Shown: positions 16,789 to 34,229 of the stretch, piece by piece
How the letters are laid out: each line of letters opens with the position of its first letter
Position numbering within the stretch: the first letter of the stretch is position 1
Virus record (IMG/VR): IMGVR_UViG_3300027631_000020
Location: 1-59,999 of that record
From: a virus
DNA length: 59,999 nt
Strand: one strand, 5' to 3'
Notes under the pieces: model-generated
What the model was told of the DNA's origin: nothing
The model's input: only the letters and a program-made list of their open reading frames with translations
Databases searched by the model: none
Program-made: the position numbers and the translations under genes

Positions 16789-19623
16789 ATGGCAAATTCA
16801 AATAGAGTTTTTGTATCTCCAGGTGTTTATACATCGGAAAAAGATTTAACATTCGTCGCACAGAGTGTAGGTGTAACTACATTAGGTTTGGTAGGTGAAA
16901 CCTTAAAGGGGCCTGCTTTTGAACCTATCTTAGTAAAAGATTATGACGAATTTAAATTGTACTTTGGAGGTTCATCACCAGCAAAAGACGGGGCCGGTAA
17001 CCCAAAATATGAGTTACCTTATGTTGCTAAAGCATACCTTGAAGAATCAAATCAGTTATTCGTAACAAGAATCCTAGGATTAACAGGATATAAACCAGTG
17101 AAAACTTTCGCAATTAAAACCTTGGGTGGTTTTGTTGTTGGTTCCATTACAGGTAGTACCACAGGTGTTACTATGGACCCTACTCCATTAGCGACTTTTA
17201 CGGGAAGTACATTTTACGGTGAACTTTCAGGTAAAACCGCATACGATGGTACATCCATTACAGATTATATCTACACAGAATTTAGTGGTTTCACAGGTAA
17301 TACTGGAACATGGTTCGTTATCGGTGAGGCGGACGCAGCAGACGTTGCGGCTCAGGACCCAACTAAAGAAATGATTTCACCATTTACAGGTGACCTAAAC
17401 GCAGATTCAAATTGGAATAAAAATTGGTACAACACATTCAATGATGGGTCGGGAGTTGTTTACTCTTACCTATTTGTTTGGAATGGTACTACTAATTTAT
17501 TCACAGTAACAAGATATCAATATTCGGCAACAGTAACTAATGATAATAAAGTCGTAGTTGCATTCCGTTCTAGAGGTTCTTATTCGGGACAAACATTATT
17601 ACTTGAAGTTACAGGTAACACAAGTTTTAACATTTCAAGTTCTGAGTTGGCAACAAATCCTTTCGCAGAATTTACACTTAATGTAACGGGTTCTACGAGT
17701 GGTGCAAAAACATTCACTTGTTCTTTGGACTCTACATCATCTAAGTATGTAACTAAGGTGTTGGGTACGGATGTATTCGACAAACCTAAATCTGATATTC
17801 CGGTGTATGTTTACGAAACATATCCGAATTATTTGAAAAAGGCATATGAACAAGGATTAGTAAGAGGTTTAAGTTTAACTGAAGTATATGTTTCTGAAGG
17901 AACAAACTTTGTTAGAGAATGGGATACCCCAATGTCTCCAACAGTTGTATCTGAAGTACGAGGTGGTGAAGTTTCTGACCTATTCGAAGTTATTACAATT
18001 TCTGATGGAGATGCTGCAAACGCACAAATTAAAATGTCGGTTATCAATATAAACCTTGAAACAGGTGAATTTGATTTAATCGTTCGTGATTTTAATGATA
18101 CTGACGATAACTTAGTTGCTCTTGAGAAGTTCACAAGATGTTCAATGAACCCTGACCTTCCAGGTTATGTGGCTAAGAAAGTAGGTACTTCAGATGGAGA
18201 ATATGAGTTACGTTCAAAATATATTATGTTGAATATGTCTGAAAACCATCCGGTTGACGCATTCCCAGCAGGTTTTAAAGGATTCGTATCAAATACAAAT
18301 TTCTCAGGTTCAACCTTGGGTTCACTTATGTATAAAACAGAATACTATACTGCGGGTGACGTAACAGGATTTAACTTTGACGGTTCTGAAATTCAATCAG
18401 CGGGAGATAAAGTTAGAAAAGTAACTTTAGGTCTTTCAACTCAAGTTGGATTTGATAAAGATTTATTTAAATATAAAGGAGCATCAGCTGCGGGAGCAAC
18501 TAATGGTTTCCACTTATCTGTAAACGCATCTACTATCACAGGAACAACTTTTACAACTACTCCTTACGATTTAGAAGGTCAATCAGGTGTTGACAACTTA
18601 TTAGTTACATCAGCATACCGTAAATTCACATTTGCAGTTGGTGGTGGTTTCGATGGTTGGGATATCTATCGTCAAACTAAAACTCTTGGAGATGGATATA
18701 TCTTCGGTAAACCTACTTATGTAAGTGGTCACACAACTAATGGTGGTGTGTTCAGTACAACAGTTGGAAACTCTGATTACTACTCATACCTACAAGGTAT
18801 TAACACATTCGCAAACCCTGAAGCGGTAGACATTAACATCTTCGCAACTCCGGGGATTAACTTCTACGACCATAGTTCATTAACCACACAGGCGATTGAT
18901 ATTATGGAGAACGATAGAGCGGATTCACTTTATATCATTTCATCACCTAATTTCCAAACTGCAGAAGAAGTAATTGACGCATTGGACGGTGTCGCATTGG
19001 ATACTAACTATTCAGCAACCTATTGGCCATGGATTCAGGTTAGAGACCAAGATAATGCAACTCAACTATATATTCCACCAACAGGTGAAGTTGTTAGAAA
19101 TATTGCATTGACTGATAATGTGTCTTTCCCATGGTTCGCGGTAGCGGGTTACTCAAGAGGATTGGTAAAATCAATCAAAGCGGTTAAGAAATTAACCCTT
19201 GACGAAAGAGATGACCTATACAAAGCGAGAATTAACCCAATTGCAACCTTCTCAGATACTGGTACAATTATTTGGGGTAACAAAACCCTACAAGTTAGAG
19301 AATCTGCATTGGATAGAATTAACGTAAGAAGATTATTGTTAAGAGCAAGAAAACTTATTTCAGCAGTTGCAATAAGACTATTGTTTGAACAAAATGACGA
19401 ACAAGTTCGTAATGAATTCTTGAGATTAGTAAACCCAATTCTTGAATCAATTAAGAGAGAAAGAGGTTTATATGAGTTCCGTGTTACTGTTTCAAATGAC
19501 CCTGAGGACATTGATTCAAACACACTTAGAGGTAAAATCTATGTAAAACCAACTCGTTCACTTGAATTCATTGATGTTGAGTTCATAATAACCCCAACTG
19601 GAGCATCATTTGATAATATTTAA
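16789..19623 (+). CDS. Contractile tail sheath protein, gp18-like (944 aa)
   Basis: Forms the contractile outer tube. The N-terminal motif VFVSPGVYTSEKDLTF and the segment GLVGETLKGPAFEPILVKDYDEF are typical of T4-type sheaths. The conserved C-terminal domain runs from about residue 750 to the end and includes PWFAVAGYSRG, RVNPIA-like ARINPIATF, and the final beta strands that make the intersheath mesh. At 944 residues it is longer than T4 gp18 (659), the extra length being in the variable, outward-facing middle. It has its own late-type box and is followed by a terminator-like hairpin, so it may be transcribed separately and highly. High confidence. Confidence 0.95.
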   Translation: MANSNRVFVSPGVYTSEKDLTFVAQSVGVTTLGLVGETLKGPAFEPILVKDYDEFKLYFGGSSPAKDGAGNPKYELPYVAKAYLEESNQLFVTRILGLTGYKPVKTFAIKTLGGFVVGSITGSTTGVTMDPTPLATFTGSTFYGELSGKTAYDGTSITDYIYTEFSGFTGNTGTWFVIGEADAADVAAQDPTKEMISPFTGDLNADSNWNKNWYNTFNDGSGVVYSYLFVWNGTTNLFTVTRYQYSATVTNDNKVVVAFRSRGSYSGQTLLLEVTGNTSFNISSSELATNPFAEFTLNVTGSTSGAKTFTCSLDSTSSKYVTKVLGTDVFDKPKSDIPVYVYETYPNYLKKAYEQGLVRGLSLTEVYVSEGTNFVREWDTPMSPTVVSEVRGGEVSDLFEVITISDGDAANAQIKMSVININLETGEFDLIVRDFNDTDDNLVALEKFTRCSMNPDLPGYVAKKVGTSDGEYELRSKYIMLNMSENHPVDAFPAGFKGFVSNTNFSGSTLGSLMYKTEYYTAGDVTGFNFDGSEIQSAGDKVRKVTLGLSTQVGFDKDLFKYKGASAAGATNGFHLSVNASTITGTTFTTTPYDLEGQSGVDNLLVTSAYRKFTFAVGGGFDGWDIYRQTKTLGDGYIFGKPTYVSGHTTNGGVFSTTVGNSDYYSYLQGINTFANPEAVDINIFATPGINFYDHSSLTTQAIDIMENDRADSLYIISSPNFQTAEEVIDALDGVALDTNYSATYWPWIQVRDQDNATQLYIPPTGEVVRNIALTDNVSFPWFAVAGYSRGLVKSIKAVKKLTLDERDDLYKARINPIATFSDTGTIIWGNKTLQVRESALDRINVRRLLLRARKLISAVAIRLLFEQNDEQVRNEFLRLVNPILESIKRERGLYEFRVTVSNDPEDIDSNTLRGKIYVKPTRSLEFIDVEFIITPTGASFDNI

Positions 19624-19928: not shown

Positions 19929-20417
19929 ATGGCAGATTTATTAATGAAAATGCCGGTTCCTTACGAACCGAAAAGAGTTAACCGATTCATACTTAGATTC
20001 CCTTCTTCATTGGGTATCAACGAATGGTATGTATCATCAGCGGCTAGACCAAGTGCGAAAATCAATTCAGTTGCGATTCCATTTATAAACACTTCAACTT
20101 ATGTTGCAGGTAGATTCGAATGGAACGAATTAAGAGTGACGTTTAAAGACCCAATAGGTCCTTCAGCATCCCAAGCATTGATGGAGTGGTTCCGTCTACA
20201 CGCTGAGTCTGTTACAGGTCGTATGGGATACGCTGCTGGGTATAAGAAAGACATTGAATTGGAAATGTTAGACCCAACAGGTGTTGTTGTTGAAAAATGG
20301 ATTCTTCAAGGAACATTTTTAACTGACTTGAACTTTAACGAACTTGATTATTCAAGAGACGATATTGCAACTATCACAGCGTCTTTACGTATGGATAGAT
20401 GTATTCAAGTTTACTAA
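19929..20417 (+). CDS. Tail tube protein, gp19-like (162 aa)
   Basis: Forms the inner tail tube. Length and sequence fit the T4 gp19 family, with a hydrophobic N-terminus followed by RVNRFILRFPSS, a long central loop, the helix segment ASQALMEWFRLHAES, and final beta strands ending in a short basic tail. Its position immediately after the sheath and before the gp26-like gene matches T4-type tails. A strong terminator follows, so it is expected to form its own highly expressed unit. High confidence. Confidence 0.93.
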   Translation: MADLLMKMPVPYEPKRVNRFILRFPSSLGINEWYVSSAARPSAKINSVAIPFINTSTYVAGRFEWNELRVTFKDPIGPSASQALMEWFRLHAESVTGRMGYAAGYKKDIELEMLDPTGVVVEKWILQGTFLTDLNFNELDYSRDDIATITASLRMDRCIQVY

Positions 20418-20526: not shown

Positions 20527-21276
20527 ATGGAAGAATTTAGAATTGACCCAACGATATCTTATGATGTTGTTGAACTACCTTCAAGGGGAATTTACTACCC
20601 AAGTGGTAAGAAATCCCTAAGAGTTGCATACCTAACTGCAACTGACGAAAACATACTATCGTCACAAAATTTAATCGCTACCAATATGGTAACTGAAGAA
20701 CTTCTAAAAAGAAAAATTCTTGATAGAGATTTTGAAGTTACTGAAATGGTTGATGACGATAAACAGGCGGTATTATTATTTTTAAGAAACACCGCGTTTG
20801 GTTCGGAATATAAATTTAATTTAATCGACCCAAAAACAAAAGAAGAATACGAAAGAATCGTTGATTTAAGTGAAGTTAAATTTAAAGATTTCACATTGGT
20901 TCCCGATGTTAACGGTGAATATCCATATAGAATGGAAAAAACTGGTATTGATATCACATTCAAATTTCTAAATCAAAAACAAATTGATGATATTAGAAAA
21001 ATAGAAGACAGTTGGAACGGAAATGGGGTTGCACCTGTTATCACAAAACAACTTGAAATGATGATTAAAACAGTTGCCGGTAATAAAGATATGATGAACA
21101 CAAGAAACTTCATTGAAAAATTACCAATCAAAGATTCTCAGGATTTCAGAAAATACGTGAAAGAAAATTCACCTAAACTAGATTTAAAAAAAGAAGTAAA
21201 CACCCCGTCAGGAGACATAGTCCAAGTAGAAATTGGATTCGGGGTTGAGTTTTTTCGTCCTTTCTACGGATTATAA
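20527..21276 (+). CDS. gp26-like baseplate/tail assembly protein (249 aa)
   Basis: The N-terminal segment VELPSRGIYYPSGKKSLRV followed by LTATDENIL is the hallmark of the T4 gp26-type baseplate protein family (Pfam T4_baseplate). In these phages it sits before the tape measure and acts in hub assembly or as a tape-measure chaperone. The remainder is a mixed alpha/beta domain with a charged C-terminus. Its last codons overlap an open +1 frame that continues to 21409, described separately; the arrangement suggests a programmed frameshift. It follows the tube terminator and precedes the tape measure gene, consistent with tail chaperone position. Confidence 0.8.
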   Translation: MEEFRIDPTISYDVVELPSRGIYYPSGKKSLRVAYLTATDENILSSQNLIATNMVTEELLKRKILDRDFEVTEMVDDDKQAVLLFLRNTAFGSEYKFNLIDPKTKEEYERIVDLSEVKFKDFTLVPDVNGEYPYRMEKTGIDITFKFLNQKQIDDIRKIEDSWNGNGVAPVITKQLEMMIKTVAGNKDMMNTRNFIEKLPIKDSQDFRKYVKENSPKLDLKKEVNTPSGDIVQVEIGFGVEFFRPFYGL

Positions 21277-21409
21277 GAAAGGTCAGCTAGACGAGATTTT
21301 ATTTTTAGTTAAAAGAGGATTCTCTTATGGGGATGTACTTACTATGCCCGTCTTTATTAGAAGGTATTATGTTGAGTATTTAATTGAATTAGAAAATAGG
21401 TCGGCGTAA
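21245..21409 (+). CDS. Frameshift extension of the gp26-like protein / chaperone C-terminus (about 54 aa)
   Basis: In the +1 frame an open stretch runs from 21230 to the TAA at 21407-21409. It contains the coherent coding sequence TDYKKGQLDEILFLVKRG and a helix ending in YYVEYLIELENRSA, with no ATG near its start (only TTG at 21233 and 21245). It overlaps the 3' end of the gp26-like gene at TTT TTT CGT (21250-21258), where a Phe tRNA on TTT could slip to TTC. The likely product is therefore a gp26-like fusion made by +1 frameshift, as in lambda G/GT-type tail chaperones, directly before the tape measure. The stretch may instead be translated from TTG. Coordinates are those of the downstream frame. 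Confidence 0.6.
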   Translation: MSFFVLSTDYKKGQLDEILFLVKRGFSYGDVLTMPVFIRRYYVEYLIELENRSA

Positions 21410-28130: not shown

Positions 28131-28456
28131 TGTCAAGAGAATACTACAACAGATACGAATTATTCATAGAGGATAGTGAATTTAAAATTGTACCCGGTAT
28201 TCAAATACCAATTAAGGGAACCGATAAGTACACTTTTTATAAAAAGGGAAAAGATAGGTTAGACAAAATATCACAAGAGTATTATAATACTCCCGTATTT
28301 GGATGGTTAATTCTAATGGCAAATCCTGAAGTTAGTGGTTTAGAATTTGAAATACCGAATAATTCTCTATTAAGAGTGCCATTTCCTTTAACTACGACTT
28401 TACAAGATTATAAAAGAAGTGTAGAATTGTACAACTTATATTATGGCGAGCAATAA
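28130..28456 (+). CDS. LysM-like baseplate protein, gpX/gp53-type (108 aa)
   Basis: A short LysM-fold protein: GKDRLDKISQEYYNTPVFGW, then LILMANPEVSG and NNSLLRVPFPL match the pattern of tail protein X and gp53-like baseplate subunits that grip the hub. It is coupled to the preceding gene by TAATG and overlaps the hub gene by 14 bp, so all three are likely translated together. Unlike bacterial LysM cell-wall binders it has no signal peptide. Confidence in the fold is good, in the exact homologue moderate. Confidence 0.7.
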   Translation: MSREYYNRYELFIEDSEFKIVPGIQIPIKGTDKYTFYKKGKDRLDKISQEYYNTPVFGWLILMANPEVSGLEFEIPNNSLLRVPFPLTTTLQDYKRSVELYNLYYGEQ

Positions 28457-31400
28457 CGATTTAACTAATAGTGAAAACATACTTGTAAAAGTAGACCAAA
28501 ACAATCTTATGTATATCGACCCGAATAGTGTCGTCGACAATGACGGTAATATTCAACCTAGGGGAGTAAAACAAGAGAATTTGGTTATGTATGCGAACTT
28601 GGAGGCGGATATTATCCCGAGAACAACTCTAGTTGCAAAAGAACAAGGTAGTACACTTGTTAGTATCGCCAAGGGTGAACTTAACTTTTTAAAAAATCAA
28701 ACAGGGGACGGTAATTTCGATACCTCATGGACAGATTCGTTTGTTGGTAAGGACAACTTTACTGATAAAGATGGAAAACCATTACCTAAAACCGCAAAAA
28801 ACTATTCAGGGGCGGATAGTGTAAACTACGACCCAAGTGGACAAAGTTTTGGTATTGATAGTATTAACATAACAGTTAAGGGTGCCAACTACACACCCCA
28901 GGTCACAATTAATTTCATCGACGTTAGAGGTAAAACACTATTTGAATCATCTGAAAATTCACCATATCGTGCATTTTTTCACTTACCGTGGCCAATATTT
29001 TATTTAACTGTAAAGGGATATTACGGTAAGGCAATAAGGTATCGTTTACACATGACTAAGTTTAGTTCAAAGTTTAACGAGTCTAATGGTAACTTTGAAG
29101 TGACCACAACATTTGTGGGTTCAACTTACGCATTTATGAATGACATCCCATTATCCACAATGATAAACAGTCCTTATATGTTTTTAACTGAAAATGTTGA
29201 GAACAAAAAATTTAATGAAAAGGATGGGAGATACGAAAAAACAATTTCAAGAAGTTCAAGGGGATATCAAATTTTAAGGTCAGTTTACGAACAATACGAA
29301 CAAAAAGGATTAGTTGCTAAGGGAACATTCATTAAGAACGACGGTAAACCCGTAAAAACTTTAAAAGATTTAGGATACATTGCAGAATCATTAGATAAGA
29401 TTTTGGAAAGAAAAATCTTCAATGAGGTTGTAGATATGTCAGTGTTTCAAGGGATTAAAGAATTGGAAACAACTCTTAATACTTTTGAGAGTGCAATTAG
29501 TGCGTGGTCTAAACAAAATTTAGCGGTTAAAGAATTTGAAGTTAGGTTAATTGGTACTGACGAATACAATTGGTATTATATTGGAACCAAAGAAAAAAAG
29601 TCTTTAGATAAAATAACTGGTGAGAGTGAAGGTACTTTAGAAAGGTTACTAAAGGTATATTCCGAAGAATTAAACAAATCAGTTTTATTTGAAAATAAAT
29701 TAATGAATAGAACGAAGTCCGATTTTAAAAAGATTTCGTTGAGTACAATTAAAAACATTAAATCTTATTACGATGTTTTAACTGACGGTTTTGTTTTGGT
29801 TGGTGTTGATTTACTTTTAAAAGATATTTTTGAAATTAGAAAATCATTTGAAGAACAAAGAAAAAAATTAGAGGATGAGGTTGAACAAAAGATGAATGAA
29901 ATCATCAAAGACCCAACTTTAGGGTTTGGATTTGAACCGACCATTAGAAATATTTTTGCGGTGGTTTTGGCTGGTGCTGATGTGTATATTCGTTTAATGA
30001 AGGACACCCACAACAAAGCATTTGATGCAAGTAAAAGTAGAATAAAACTATTAGAAGGTTTAAGTGACGAACAAAAAGGGAAGGGAGTTGCAATTTATCC
30101 ATGGCCTGAGGTTAAAAAACCAATGTCAAGTGGAAAACAAAATGTAATTGCATATCCTGGCGAGGCTGAATTGGTTAATAAATTAAAATCTAACAATAAA
30201 ACGTTGTGGCCTGAGGTTGATTTTGTTGAGGAGTATATTAAAATTGTAACGAACAAATTAGACACAGGTGTTAAAACAGAACCAACGATTAGTGACATTA
30301 ATTATATTTTCGAATCTGATTCTGAATCGAATAATTTAGATGACATTAGTGGTATAGATGTAATAAATGATGGACTACCATATACTGATAAAGTGTTTTC
30401 ATCTTTTATTTACGAAGTGTACGAAAGAGCAAAATATATTACATTATTTGATTCTTACACAAATAGTATGTTGGATATCTTGGCAAAAGAAGAGGTAGAA
30501 AACATTAAAGAGTCTATAGGTGAAGATATTGAATTAGTGGACTTATGTCAAAAACTAACCAGTATTGATTCATTTATAACGGTTTCACCGGATGGTACTA
30601 AATTTGATGGATACCTTCCATCATCATCACCACACGATAGGTTTACTTATTTAAGAGACCATCTACCAACGGTACCGTACATTAAAGATATTTTAGAGTA
30701 CCCATTTAAGTTTGAAAAATACGGAAGTGTTAATAGACAAAGGAAAGATTTCAAATCAAAAGAAATGAATGATGAATTGGTGAAATATGTTTCAGAACCA
30801 TATAGAACTAAAATATATCCATTTAATTCAGACACTTATTTAGATTATTTGAATAAGACCGAATTTACTGATGACAATTTTAAATTTAATGGGATTTTAC
30901 AAGTTAACCCATCACAAGGATTTGTATGTTCACCGTTTAATGTGACTTCATGGGTTAAACCTGGATACGATGAAAATATGTTTACACAAAAACTTAAAAA
31001 TGGTAACACATCCGTTAATATATTAAACACACCATATTTTCATAAACAGTTAAAATCTGATTTTGGTAAAACGACCAAACACGGAAAATATACGGGAGCG
31101 TCTTATCTTTTATTAAATTCATTGCCGTTTTTAGATTTAGAAGATACCATTACATTTACTGACCCATTAGCCGGAATGATGGGTCAAACTAACAACAGTA
31201 AATCGATATTAATGTCTTCTTTATTCAGAGAAGTTTCATCAACTCATTTTGTACCGTACCACTTAATGTTAAAATGGGGAGCAATGTACCATAGATACAG
31301 AAAACAAATTATTGATGGTGTGGATATATTAGATGGTTTCTTAAACTCAAGTAATATAACACAACCAATTACGGGTAGTGCCTTTTTTGATGGTGGATTA

Positions 31401-34229
31401 ATAGGTTCAACCTTTAACTCTTTTTTAATTAGTGGAAATTCAATTTCACATGTAACATCTGATAACGTAGGTTTAAATCCACATTACCAAGCGGTTTACC
31501 ACCAAATTGTTAATGGTTATTCACATTACAACATCAATTCAGGTAATGTTGATTATACAACACAAACAAATTCAGGTAACATATCACACAAGGTACTTGA
31601 AGGTAATAACGGAAATAGATATTGGAGTGTGTTGGTTGATAACTCAAAGTACAAACCGACCGAACAATTTTATACACTATTACCGTCACACGGTTTGAAC
31701 CAATCTGACCTTGCAACTAAAAATTTAGAAACATTTGATTTTGCCGAACAATATACGTTTAGAAGTTGGTGGTTTGATGAAAGTGTAACAAATGAGTTTT
31801 CAGGTAAAACATTTGCATCACATTCTGAATACCCAAGAAATTATATATCGGGAAGTACGGTTGATAACACATTTTCAATAGACACGAACTATAGAAAGGT
31901 TATCGATTTAATTGCAACGTTCAGTCCAGAAATTTTAGATTCATTTGAAAGTATGTTTTTAGATTTCGCATCTGAAAAAACAAATGATGAAATACCATAT
32001 CAAGTTTTTGATAATCTAAAGTATGGTAAATTTCAAGACTTACTTAAAGAATTGGTTACTGTAAAAAAAGAAAGTTCAGACGGTACGTCAAACACTTTAT
32101 TTAATTTAGTTAAGGAAAGACAAGTTGCAAAAGCAACGGAGGTTACTAGTGGTTTATTAAGTAGTCAAAATATAATAAAATTCACATTAGCAAATCCAAA
32201 AGAAATTGACCCATACACTTTTTATGGTATGGCAAAAATTGAAAATTACAATCGTTATACGGTTCAACCATATAGTAATTCGGATTTAACCCCTACAAAT
32301 CAAAAATTCATTAAATTATATATTGGTGAGGACATGGAAGGGTACTACCAAGAATTTTTTGGTGTAAACGATGTGAAACTTACAGAAGAGAATATTATAA
32401 AATATCGACCATTGGCTCAGATTTATGCTGGTTATAGAAAATCGGGCGGTACAAATAGTAAGTCTGCATTTAGAGAATATCTTAGAGTTTCTATATTTCA
32501 AGTCACAGGTAATAAAATTTATGCCGATGGGTCTGACGTTAGATTAAAATACTTTTTAAGATTGGTATTAAGTGAAATCAGTAAAAAGGGTAACATAACA
32601 AGAAAAGATGAATCGATTGATATAAGAAAGTACCAAGGACACAATTTAAATGACACTAAGTTGGAGTTGTATAACACCTTCAAATCATTTAACGATAAAT
32701 GGACAGCAGGTAATTCAATTGGTCAAAGATTATTACTTGAGGAGTTCTTATTTTTAGATAAGGCAAATAGAGATATTGGAGACAAGTTCTTTTTAAATGT
32801 TGACAAAATTCTACCATTGTTACACCCAAATAATATGAAACAAAATTTATATGGGGCGATTTCTATGTTAATACAGGAAACTGGTTTAGATATGAGAGCA
32901 CTTCCCGCATATGTTAATTTCTATGGTAGTAACTTTAAAAATAAAACTAAAATTGTCCCATCTAAGAAAGTTGCAAAAAACCTATTCGGTACATTTTTAG
33001 AAGTTGATTATCAAGAGTCATCACCAAAAATTATTATTCAATTAGTTGGGGCATCATCAAAAAGAGCCGACATGTCTAATAGTAAGGCAAATAAATTTGC
33101 CGATGATAGTTTTTATGTTGGTAGTGTTAATAATAACCCATTGGTTATAACATCACTTGAAAATTTCTCAAAAACAGATTTGAGTAAATCAAATAAGGTG
33201 GTGGCATTCGAAGTTAGTTTTGGTGACCAAAATCAGGGTATTTTTAAAGGTGTTCAATTAGACCAAAGTACACTTAAAAACACTTCAGAATCGTTTGTTG
33301 TGTTGGAAAACTTAGGTAGGTCTGAATCAGGTGCGGGGGCATATAATGTTGACGTAAGTCTTTTCGATTATTACAAATCAGCATCGTATAGATGTGAAGT
33401 AACATGTATGGGTAACGTAATGATTCAACCAACAATGTATTTTTACCTTAAAAACATACCAATGTTTAAGGGTTCATATTGGATTACCGAGGTTAGTCAC
33501 TCGATTAAAAGTAATAACATATCCACAACATTTGTTGGAACTAGAATACCATATACATCGTTACCTGACCCTAAAGACTCATTTATATCGAGTTATAGAG
33601 TTTTATTCGATAAGTTATCAAGTAAAGCCCAATCAAAACTTAAACAGGCACCTGTCACGGGGGCAACAACTGAAACCTCAATAGTATATGATAATGCATC
33701 GTATTCAACGGACATGAAAGGTAAAAAGGGAACTAATGATGAAATTATAACCAAAACATCTCCATTAGTTGGGGTTACTGAATTCGGTATACCTTTCAAT
33801 GGATATAAAAACCATAAAGAGGTTCAGAAAATTGATAGTGACGGAACATGGTTAAGAGCAATTGCAGTTAAGATGGGTGGTGAAAAATGTCCAATTGACC
33901 CTGACACAACAATGGGAATTGCAGATGGTATTAAATGGTCTAAATTAAGTGGAACCACTTATAAGTTCTATACTACTACATTTTTAACAAACGTTGCTAA
34001 TTCTCAAAAAATTAGAACGGCAACCACTAATTTTAAAAATCCTAAAAACGGAAAAACTTTTACACTTAACCCAAGTTACCAATTAGCGGAGACATTAGGA
34101 ACAATAGTGGCAAATGGACCCGTTGGTAATGGACCAATTGCTGAGGGATATGGAATGGGTATGTCGCCATCTTTAATGTCTGAATTAGGATTATTTGACG
34201 GAGATGTTGTGTATTTTAAACTAACATAA
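28443..34229 (+). CDS. Giant baseplate hub protein, gpD/gp27-like with C-terminal extension (1928 aa)
   Basis: Probably the central hub/spike-bearing protein. Residues about 138-245 (GIDSINITVKGANYTPQVTI, then YGKAIRYRLHMTKFSS) and about 1635-1710 (SASYRCEVTCMGNVMIQPTM, YFYLKNIPMFKGSYWITEV) resemble halves of the split beta domain of phage hub proteins. More than a thousand residues of unrecognised, partly coiled sequence separate them. The last ~140 residues, ending SPSLMSELGLFDGDVVYFKL, look like a separate small beta-barrel, possibly double-psi. No lysozyme motif was found. It is far larger than T4 gp27 (391 residues) or P2 gpD. Position after the gpX-like gene supports the hub call. Confidence 0.6.
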   Translation: MASNNDLTNSENILVKVDQNNLMYIDPNSVVDNDGNIQPRGVKQENLVMYANLEADIIPRTTLVAKEQGSTLVSIAKGELNFLKNQTGDGNFDTSWTDSFVGKDNFTDKDGKPLPKTAKNYSGADSVNYDPSGQSFGIDSINITVKGANYTPQVTINFIDVRGKTLFESSENSPYRAFFHLPWPIFYLTVKGYYGKAIRYRLHMTKFSSKFNESNGNFEVTTTFVGSTYAFMNDIPLSTMINSPYMFLTENVENKKFNEKDGRYEKTISRSSRGYQILRSVYEQYEQKGLVAKGTFIKNDGKPVKTLKDLGYIAESLDKILERKIFNEVVDMSVFQGIKELETTLNTFESAISAWSKQNLAVKEFEVRLIGTDEYNWYYIGTKEKKSLDKITGESEGTLERLLKVYSEELNKSVLFENKLMNRTKSDFKKISLSTIKNIKSYYDVLTDGFVLVGVDLLLKDIFEIRKSFEEQRKKLEDEVEQKMNEIIKDPTLGFGFEPTIRNIFAVVLAGADVYIRLMKDTHNKAFDASKSRIKLLEGLSDEQKGKGVAIYPWPEVKKPMSSGKQNVIAYPGEAELVNKLKSNNKTLWPEVDFVEEYIKIVTNKLDTGVKTEPTISDINYIFESDSESNNLDDISGIDVINDGLPYTDKVFSSFIYEVYERAKYITLFDSYTNSMLDILAKEEVENIKESIGEDIELVDLCQKLTSIDSFITVSPDGTKFDGYLPSSSPHDRFTYLRDHLPTVPYIKDILEYPFKFEKYGSVNRQRKDFKSKEMNDELVKYVSEPYRTKIYPFNSDTYLDYLNKTEFTDDNFKFNGILQVNPSQGFVCSPFNVTSWVKPGYDENMFTQKLKNGNTSVNILNTPYFHKQLKSDFGKTTKHGKYTGASYLLLNSLPFLDLEDTITFTDPLAGMMGQTNNSKSILMSSLFREVSSTHFVPYHLMLKWGAMYHRYRKQIIDGVDILDGFLNSSNITQPITGSAFFDGGLIGSTFNSFLISGNSISHVTSDNVGLNPHYQAVYHQIVNGYSHYNINSGNVDYTTQTNSGNISHKVLEGNNGNRYWSVLVDNSKYKPTEQFYTLLPSHGLNQSDLATKNLETFDFAEQYTFRSWWFDESVTNEFSGKTFASHSEYPRNYISGSTVDNTFSIDTNYRKVIDLIATFSPEILDSFESMFLDFASEKTNDEIPYQVFDNLKYGKFQDLLKELVTVKKESSDGTSNTLFNLVKERQVAKATEVTSGLLSSQNIIKFTLANPKEIDPYTFYGMAKIENYNRYTVQPYSNSDLTPTNQKFIKLYIGEDMEGYYQEFFGVNDVKLTEENIIKYRPLAQIYAGYRKSGGTNSKSAFREYLRVSIFQVTGNKIYADGSDVRLKYFLRLVLSEISKKGNITRKDESIDIRKYQGHNLNDTKLELYNTFKSFNDKWTAGNSIGQRLLLEEFLFLDKANRDIGDKFFLNVDKILPLLHPNNMKQNLYGAISMLIQETGLDMRALPAYVNFYGSNFKNKTKIVPSKKVAKNLFGTFLEVDYQESSPKIIIQLVGASSKRADMSNSKANKFADDSFYVGSVNNNPLVITSLENFSKTDLSKSNKVVAFEVSFGDQNQGIFKGVQLDQSTLKNTSESFVVLENLGRSESGAGAYNVDVSLFDYYKSASYRCEVTCMGNVMIQPTMYFYLKNIPMFKGSYWITEVSHSIKSNNISTTFVGTRIPYTSLPDPKDSFISSYRVLFDKLSSKAQSKLKQAPVTGATTETSIVYDNASYSTDMKGKKGTNDEIITKTSPLVGVTEFGIPFNGYKNHKEVQKIDSDGTWLRAIAVKMGGEKCPIDPDTTMGIADGIKWSKLSGTTYKFYTTTFLTNVANSQKIRTATTNFKNPKNGKTFTLNPSYQLAETLGTIVANGPVGNGPIAEGYGMGMSPSLMSELGLFDGDVVYFKLT

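Follow-up and report, generated by a model that had tools for sequence, protein, structure and literature searches.

The question raised by this locus is whether a single gene supplies a phage with both a short and a long tail assembly chaperone. The window, which is the whole 59,999-base stretch of a virus record from IMG/VR analysed here, contains a gp26-like gene that ends in TTT TTT CGT CCT (21250-21261) and overlaps an open +1 frame without an ATG. This arrangement had been described in the initial annotation, and its coordinates were confirmed. Comparison with related sequences makes it very probable that a programmed +1 ribosomal frameshift yields two tail assembly chaperones from the one gene. 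The occurrence of the shift, its efficiency and the function of the products in tail assembly are the parts of this model that we infer.

Features of the locus

The features of the locus are listed in Table 1. The PF12322 match of the gp26-like protein scores 27.4 bits against a curated cut-off of 24.5, and this match above the cut-off, together with a place in the tail module between the tube and the tape measure, identifies the window gene as a T4-like chaperone gene. The order of sheath, tube, gp26-like gene and a 634-residue ORF at the tape-measure place is shared with Flavobacterium phage immuto, in which the annotated tape measure occupies the place matching that of the window ORF; no sequence match between this ORF and the immuto tape measure was detectable.

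Table 1 Features of the chaperone locus and neighbouring tail genes in the window
Feature	Position	Strand	Evidence
Tail sheath protein	16789..19623	+	PHROG 23 tail sheath 2.9e-61; PF04984 and PF17482
Tail tube protein, gp19-like	19929..20417	+	phrog_4542 1.5e-23
Short tail assembly chaperone, gp26-like, TAC-N / G-like, 249 aa	20527..21276	+	PF12322 T4_baseplate 3.3e-6; phrog_150 2e-5
Conserved GGGGT (Gly GGG codon, then GTN); possible upstream stimulator	21241..21245	+	GGG in 47/47 window-clade sequences
Candidate frameshift site TTT TTT CGT	21250..21258	+	TTT TTT 47/47 and CGN 47/47 window-clade sequences; codon-choice tests
P-site TTT, A-site CGT and skipped base	21253-21255; 21256-21258; C21256	+	Predicted shift
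+1-frame C-terminal extension, TAC-C / T-like, 50 aa	21257..21409	+	GTC 21257 to TAA 21407-21409
Predicted frameshift fusion, TAC-NC / GT-like, 293 aa	20527..21409	+	Translation with one base skipped; junction ...VEFF/VLSTDYK...
Probable tape-measure protein, 634 aa	21421..23325	+	Position alone; starts 11 bases past the extension

The 3' end of the gp26-like ORF reads TTT TTT CGT CCT TTC TAC GGA TTA TAA, with the stop codon TAA at 21274-21276. From 21230 to its stop at 21407-21409 the +1 frame is uninterrupted; downstream of the T-run it encodes VLSTDYKKGQLDEILFLVKRGFSYGDVLTMPVFIRRYYVEYLIELENRSA, and the peptide predicted across the junction of the fusion is EVNTPSGDIVQVEIGFGVEFFVLSTDYK. No ATG or GTG was found in the +1 frame of the window upstream of the gp26 stop, where the sole standard starts are the TTG codons at 21233 and 21245. 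The window encodes no tRNA genes.

In all 27 long ORFs of the window, in-frame TTT-TTT-C occurs twice. The second occurrence, TTT TTT CAC, lies in the ORF at 28443-34229, at an offset of 531 from its start, and nothing suggests programming there.

Conservation of the overlapping frame

Using the gp26-like protein, 80 loci were fetched from IMG/VR, and two wider IMG/VR searches gave 115 more. A uniform count was made on 149 distinct related loci from IMG/VR and isolates, in which a +1 locus was defined as one with a +1 ORF overlapping the gene end and running at least 35 codons beyond the stop. The +1 overlap was present in 144 of the 149 loci and a -1 ORF in 5, and a slip-competent codon lies within the overlap in every +1 locus (144/144). 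The +1 anatomy was checked in the isolate records of Flavobacterium phage immuto (TTT CTT TGG), Microcystis phage Mel-JY01 (TTT TTT TGG), Bacillus phage SP-15 (TTT TTT CAC), Listeria phage LIS04 (TTT TTT AGT), Streptococcus phage GXN1 (TTC TTT CGT) and Rhodothermus phage RM378 (TTT TTT TGG), and was also seen in the huge-phage assembly LR756508 (TTT CTA). The T4-like phages hold a large +1 branch, whose isolates infect Bacteroidota, cyanobacteria and Firmicutes.

Beyond the 0-frame stop, the +1 ORF contains no stops and has a median dN/dS of 0.12 in 38 distinct sequences, and the remaining two frames there are interrupted by stops in 38/38 and 37/38 sequences. These values show purifying selection on the +1 reading. 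The coherent protein sequence that had been noted in this frame is borne out by them and by the same overlap in the related loci; the invariant TTT codons of the site and the rarity of in-frame TTT-TTT-C in the window likewise mark the arrangement as more than chance.

The conserved +1 ORF could also be a separate small gene, translated from a TTG (21233 or 21245) or another weak start and coupled to gp26 termination. Both TTG codons are present in the window, separate small CDSs are annotated at the extension in the GenBank records of Mel-JY01, immuto and RM378, and in two huge phages whose extension is in the -1 frame an ATG overlaps the stop. However, ATG, GTG and TTG are all absent from the +1 frame ahead of the 0-frame stop in 48 of the 144 +1 loci and in 15 of 40 sequences of the window clade. 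Many relatives have GTA instead of GTT, and this change creates a +1-frame TAG two bases before the T-run and leaves no ATG, GTG, TTG or CTG. The +1 frame is conserved as far as the slip site, and a separate gene would leave the constraints at YTT-Y and CGN, described below, unexplained. Independent translation from TTG, which had been named at the outset as an observation that would count against frameshifting, fails on these start-codon counts and is very improbable.

Codon choice at the predicted slip site

In the fetched loci that span the region the DNA of the site is nearly invariant, reading GGGG and then TTTTTTCGNCCTTTC. Of all 7-codon stretches in the gp26 gene, that covering the site shows the greatest excess of synonymous identity. 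The overlapping +1 code accounts for part of this synonymous conservation, but not for the two TTT codons or for CGN. Conservation of the T6-C site had been proposed as a check on the shift; it holds within the window clade, in which both Phe codons are TTT and are followed by CGN in all 47 sequences, and does not extend to several wider relatives without a T6 run.

At the P site, the immuto clade has Phe TTT in 59 sequences and Leu in the form of CTT (18) or CTA (1). TTA, which is the commonest Leu codon, is used for none of the 19 Leu residues at this position, compared with 1,110 of 1,972 Leu codons elsewhere. In the SP-15/GXN1 clade TTC is allowed as the first Phe codon, and the second is always TTT. 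The P-site codons favoured would permit re-pairing one base forward, from TTT to TTT or TTC, and from CTT to TTT as in prfB. In a subclade of four loci (L199, L202, L204 and L208) there is no TTT-C/T at the P site and the gp26 3' end reads TTY AAT CCC AGT; CCC-A may be the likely slip site if these loci shift +1.

At the A site, Arg is encoded by CGN in 45/45 window-clade sequences and by CGC in 26/45, compared with AGA 357, AGG 26, CGA 13, CGT 6 and CGC 0 among the remaining Arg codons of the same genes. Outside the site the proportions are 19/402 for CGN and 0/402 for CGC (Fisher 5.6e-47 and 2.6e-30, respectively), P-values which overstate independence as the sequences are related. The count of third-base changes on the tree is safer: at least 8 changes have occurred at the A-site Arg, never with a switch to AGR. 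Across the window, 600 Arg codons include CGC once and CGT 85 times, and the window's own A-site codon is the moderately used CGT, not CGC. The first +1 residue in the window clade varies among Val, Ala and Asp, so no protein-level reason accounts for CGN. A need for C after TTT TTT, combined with a slow A-site codon, would explain the choice of CGN and CGC. Codon choice places the predicted shift at YTT-Y, with constrained P- and A-site codons, and backs the slip of the Phe tRNA from TTT to TTC before CGT that had been put forward for the window.

The +1 frame equals the -2 frame, and in the T6 run of the window TTT could re-pair with TTT two bases back, which would allow a -2 shift on the T-run, as has been suggested for phage Mu. 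This is most improbable, as TTC TTT CGT (GXN1 and others), CTT TGG (immuto clade) and AAC TTT CTA (LR756508) permit a +1 shift but not good -2 re-pairing. The six consecutive Ts of the window clade would also suit transcriptional slippage giving mRNAs of altered length, but the frame arrangement is kept in several relatives without such a run (TTTCTTTGG, TTCTTTCGT, AACTTTCTATTC) and the CGN preference is unaccounted for, so that the chance of this explanation is negligible. Sequencing error as the source of the frame change, for which ordinary in-frame fusions in relatives had been named as the sign, was rejected because the arrangement recurs in more than 140 distinct loci, including Flavobacterium, Microcystis, Bacillus, Listeria, Streptococcus and Rhodothermus isolates.

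A candidate stimulator of the +1 ribosomal shift lies upstream. The Gly codon at 21241-21245 is GGG in all 47 window-clade sequences, compared with 101 of 469 Gly codons elsewhere in those genes, and the GGGG is invariant in the window clade and variable outside it. It sits 8 bases ahead of the P-site codon, a spacing larger than that of the Shine-Dalgarno sequence in prfB, and GGG/GGGG may act as a Shine-Dalgarno-like stimulator within the gene. A search of the window and immuto clades for a conserved 3' RNA structure found none.

Relationship of the extension to T4 gp51

T4 gp26 (208 aa) and gp51 (249 aa) each match PF12322 and PHROG 150, and gp51 is longer than the gp26-like part by about 45 C-terminal residues. 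The profile of the +1 extensions aligned with the C-terminus of T4 gp51 with a P-value of 2.5e-4 using hhalign, and none of 300 column shuffles was as good; the window-clade extension alone gave a weaker result, with 1 of 200 shuffles equally good. The full-length fusion is collinear with gp51 (hhalign, P 3.1e-6).

Structures were predicted using AlphaFold2 from an alignment of plain translations of the fetched IMG/VR loci. The fusion was predicted with a mean pLDDT of 85.6 and a pTM of 0.81, with a helical extension, and the extension by itself was predicted as helices with a mean pLDDT of 87.2. A BFVD structure search with the fusion led to gp26-like proteins, and a fold search of the PDB gave no significant match (HK97 chaperone 2ob9, E 1.4).

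By these comparisons gp26 is the counterpart of the short form and gp51, the longer gp26 paralogue, that of the long form. T4 therefore makes its short and long chaperones from two genes, as was published in 2022. An in-frame relative of the fusion exists in gp51, and it stands alongside a separate short paralogue and is not a corrected single gene. RB43 (L098, 1201-2494) carries its gp51-like gene next to the gp26-like one, with both on one strand. The two genes are also neighbours in T4 but divergent there, and this difference suggests a local duplication together with an inversion in one lineage.

Proposed mechanism

The window combines a conserved, selected overlapping ORF, a conserved slippery site and an extension related to the TAC-C domain (gp51), as found in frameshift-type chaperones. 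The extension is in the +1 frame, and a canonical -1 shift at X XXY YYZ does not describe it. In the proposed model, the majority of ribosomes would read TTT TTT CGT and terminate at 21276, producing the short gp26-like chaperone. A minority would pause with the peptidyl-tRNA-Phe on the second TTT and the Arg codon in the A site, the tRNA would move one base forward onto TTC, and reading would restart at GTC, so adding a helical domain of 50 residues. If the two products act like lambda G and GT, the tape-measure protein would be coated by a common short and a rare long form, and tail-tube subunits would be recruited by the added domain.

Relatives with a -1 arrangement

In cyanophages ACG-2014g and S-SRM01, Vibrio phage phi-Grn1, Stenotrophomonas phage Moby and Agrobacterium phage Atu_ph07 the gene ends in T TTT TTC G and the extension lies in the -1 frame. 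The -1 extensions aligned with the gp51 C-terminus with P 9.3e-9, in an alignment which included one wrong row (L213). Compared directly, the +1 and -1 extensions resemble each other more weakly (P 3.5e-3, with 0/100 shuffles as good), and the window clade alone gave P 0.025. The string TTTTTTCG is common to both groups. At this string, T TTT TTC G is the register of the short protein and TTT TTT CG that of the extension in the -1 phages, and the window clade has the two the other way round. On balance, it appears that one T4-like chaperone family uses the same U6CG run both ways, with U UUU UUC G giving -1, UUU UUU CGN giving +1 and the short and extended frames swapped. If true, nature would have set -1 and +1 frameshifting side by side at a single homologous site, and the two genes of T4 would be a third way to the same end. 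Confirmation would mean that a homologous U6CG run supports -1 shifts in some lineages and +1 shifts in others, and that T4, with its two genes, does without it; direction control, rare-codon pausing and the required short-to-long ratio could then be tested directly on one gene family.

In the -1-frame extensions of LR756511 (L088, 3600-3850) and Atu_ph07 (L091, 3770-4010), T TTT TTC is accompanied by an ATG overlapping or next to the short-ORF stop, and both a -1 shift and a coupled separate start are possible. No gp26 homologue was found with a small profile in three segments (about 130 kb) of the 177-kb genome of Synechococcus phage Syn9, and the comparison was made with other cyanophages.

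Annotation in public records

The extension is annotated as a separate small gene in public records at L215 (2277-2372), L216 (2193-2366), L002 (3854-3964) and L004 (3728-3964), and these annotations look like mis-annotated frameshift products. Cyanophage records label the extension 'baseplate hub assembly catalyst'. Gene callers miss +1 extensions or annotate them as separate small genes, and the ORFs should be joined in annotation pipelines.

Comparison with known systems

G-T frameshifting is described as widely conserved in long-tailed phages 'except T4' (PMC5009743). In lambda, a short form G and a rare, C-terminally extended form GT made by frameshift act on the tape-measure protein (Xu et al. 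2004, as cited in PMC5009743). The window resembles lambda in having short and extended frameshift forms, but the lambda shift is -1 and that of the window is predicted to be +1. The tail chaperone of HSTV-2, a haloarchaeal myovirus, is very likely made with a +1 frameshift (PMC5009743), and this archaeal virus shares with the window a likely +1 shift in the chaperone of a contractile tail.

T4-like chaperones were identified by Vladimirov, Gautam and Davidson (Virology 2022), as cited in PMC10885494 and PMC12846349. The PRFect paper states that some T4-like phages have one short and one fused long gene (PMC10885494), and the Adele paper describes poly-T -1 signals as known from the chaperone genes of T4-like phages (PMC12846349). 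Later papers credit Vladimirov et al. 2022 both with frameshifting in T4-like tail chaperones, given as -1, and with the division into a short and a long gene. T4 gp26 and gp51, tail assembly chaperones of the Straboviridae, belong to the same PF12322/PHROG 150 family as the window gene, with gp51 consisting of a gp26-like part and a piece aligning with the window extension, but T4 has two separate genes and no frameshift and the window one gene with a predicted +1 shift. Vladimirov et al. reportedly name genes 26 and 51. The gp26/gp51 relation and the -1 form are therefore prior art. The G/GT-like extension before the tape measure in a gp26 gene, recognized in the initial annotation, stands, but frameshifting itself is not new for T4-like phages. 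In the literature covered, in which Vladimirov et al. 2022 is represented by the papers citing it, no description was found of the +1 direction, the codon evidence or the register swap.

The CTT-T of the immuto clade is like the CUU-U at which the P-site slip occurs in E. coli prfB. The prfB (RF2) shift is autoregulatory, with UGA in the A site and a close upstream Shine-Dalgarno sequence. The +1 chaperone genes have TGG or CGN in place of the prfB UGA, and GGGG is a possible stimulator in the window clade. The -1 genes of the cyanophages, Vibrio phage phi-Grn1 and Stenotrophomonas phage Moby share the gene family, the place and the T6CG run with the window, but read T TTT TTC in the 0 frame and shift -1.
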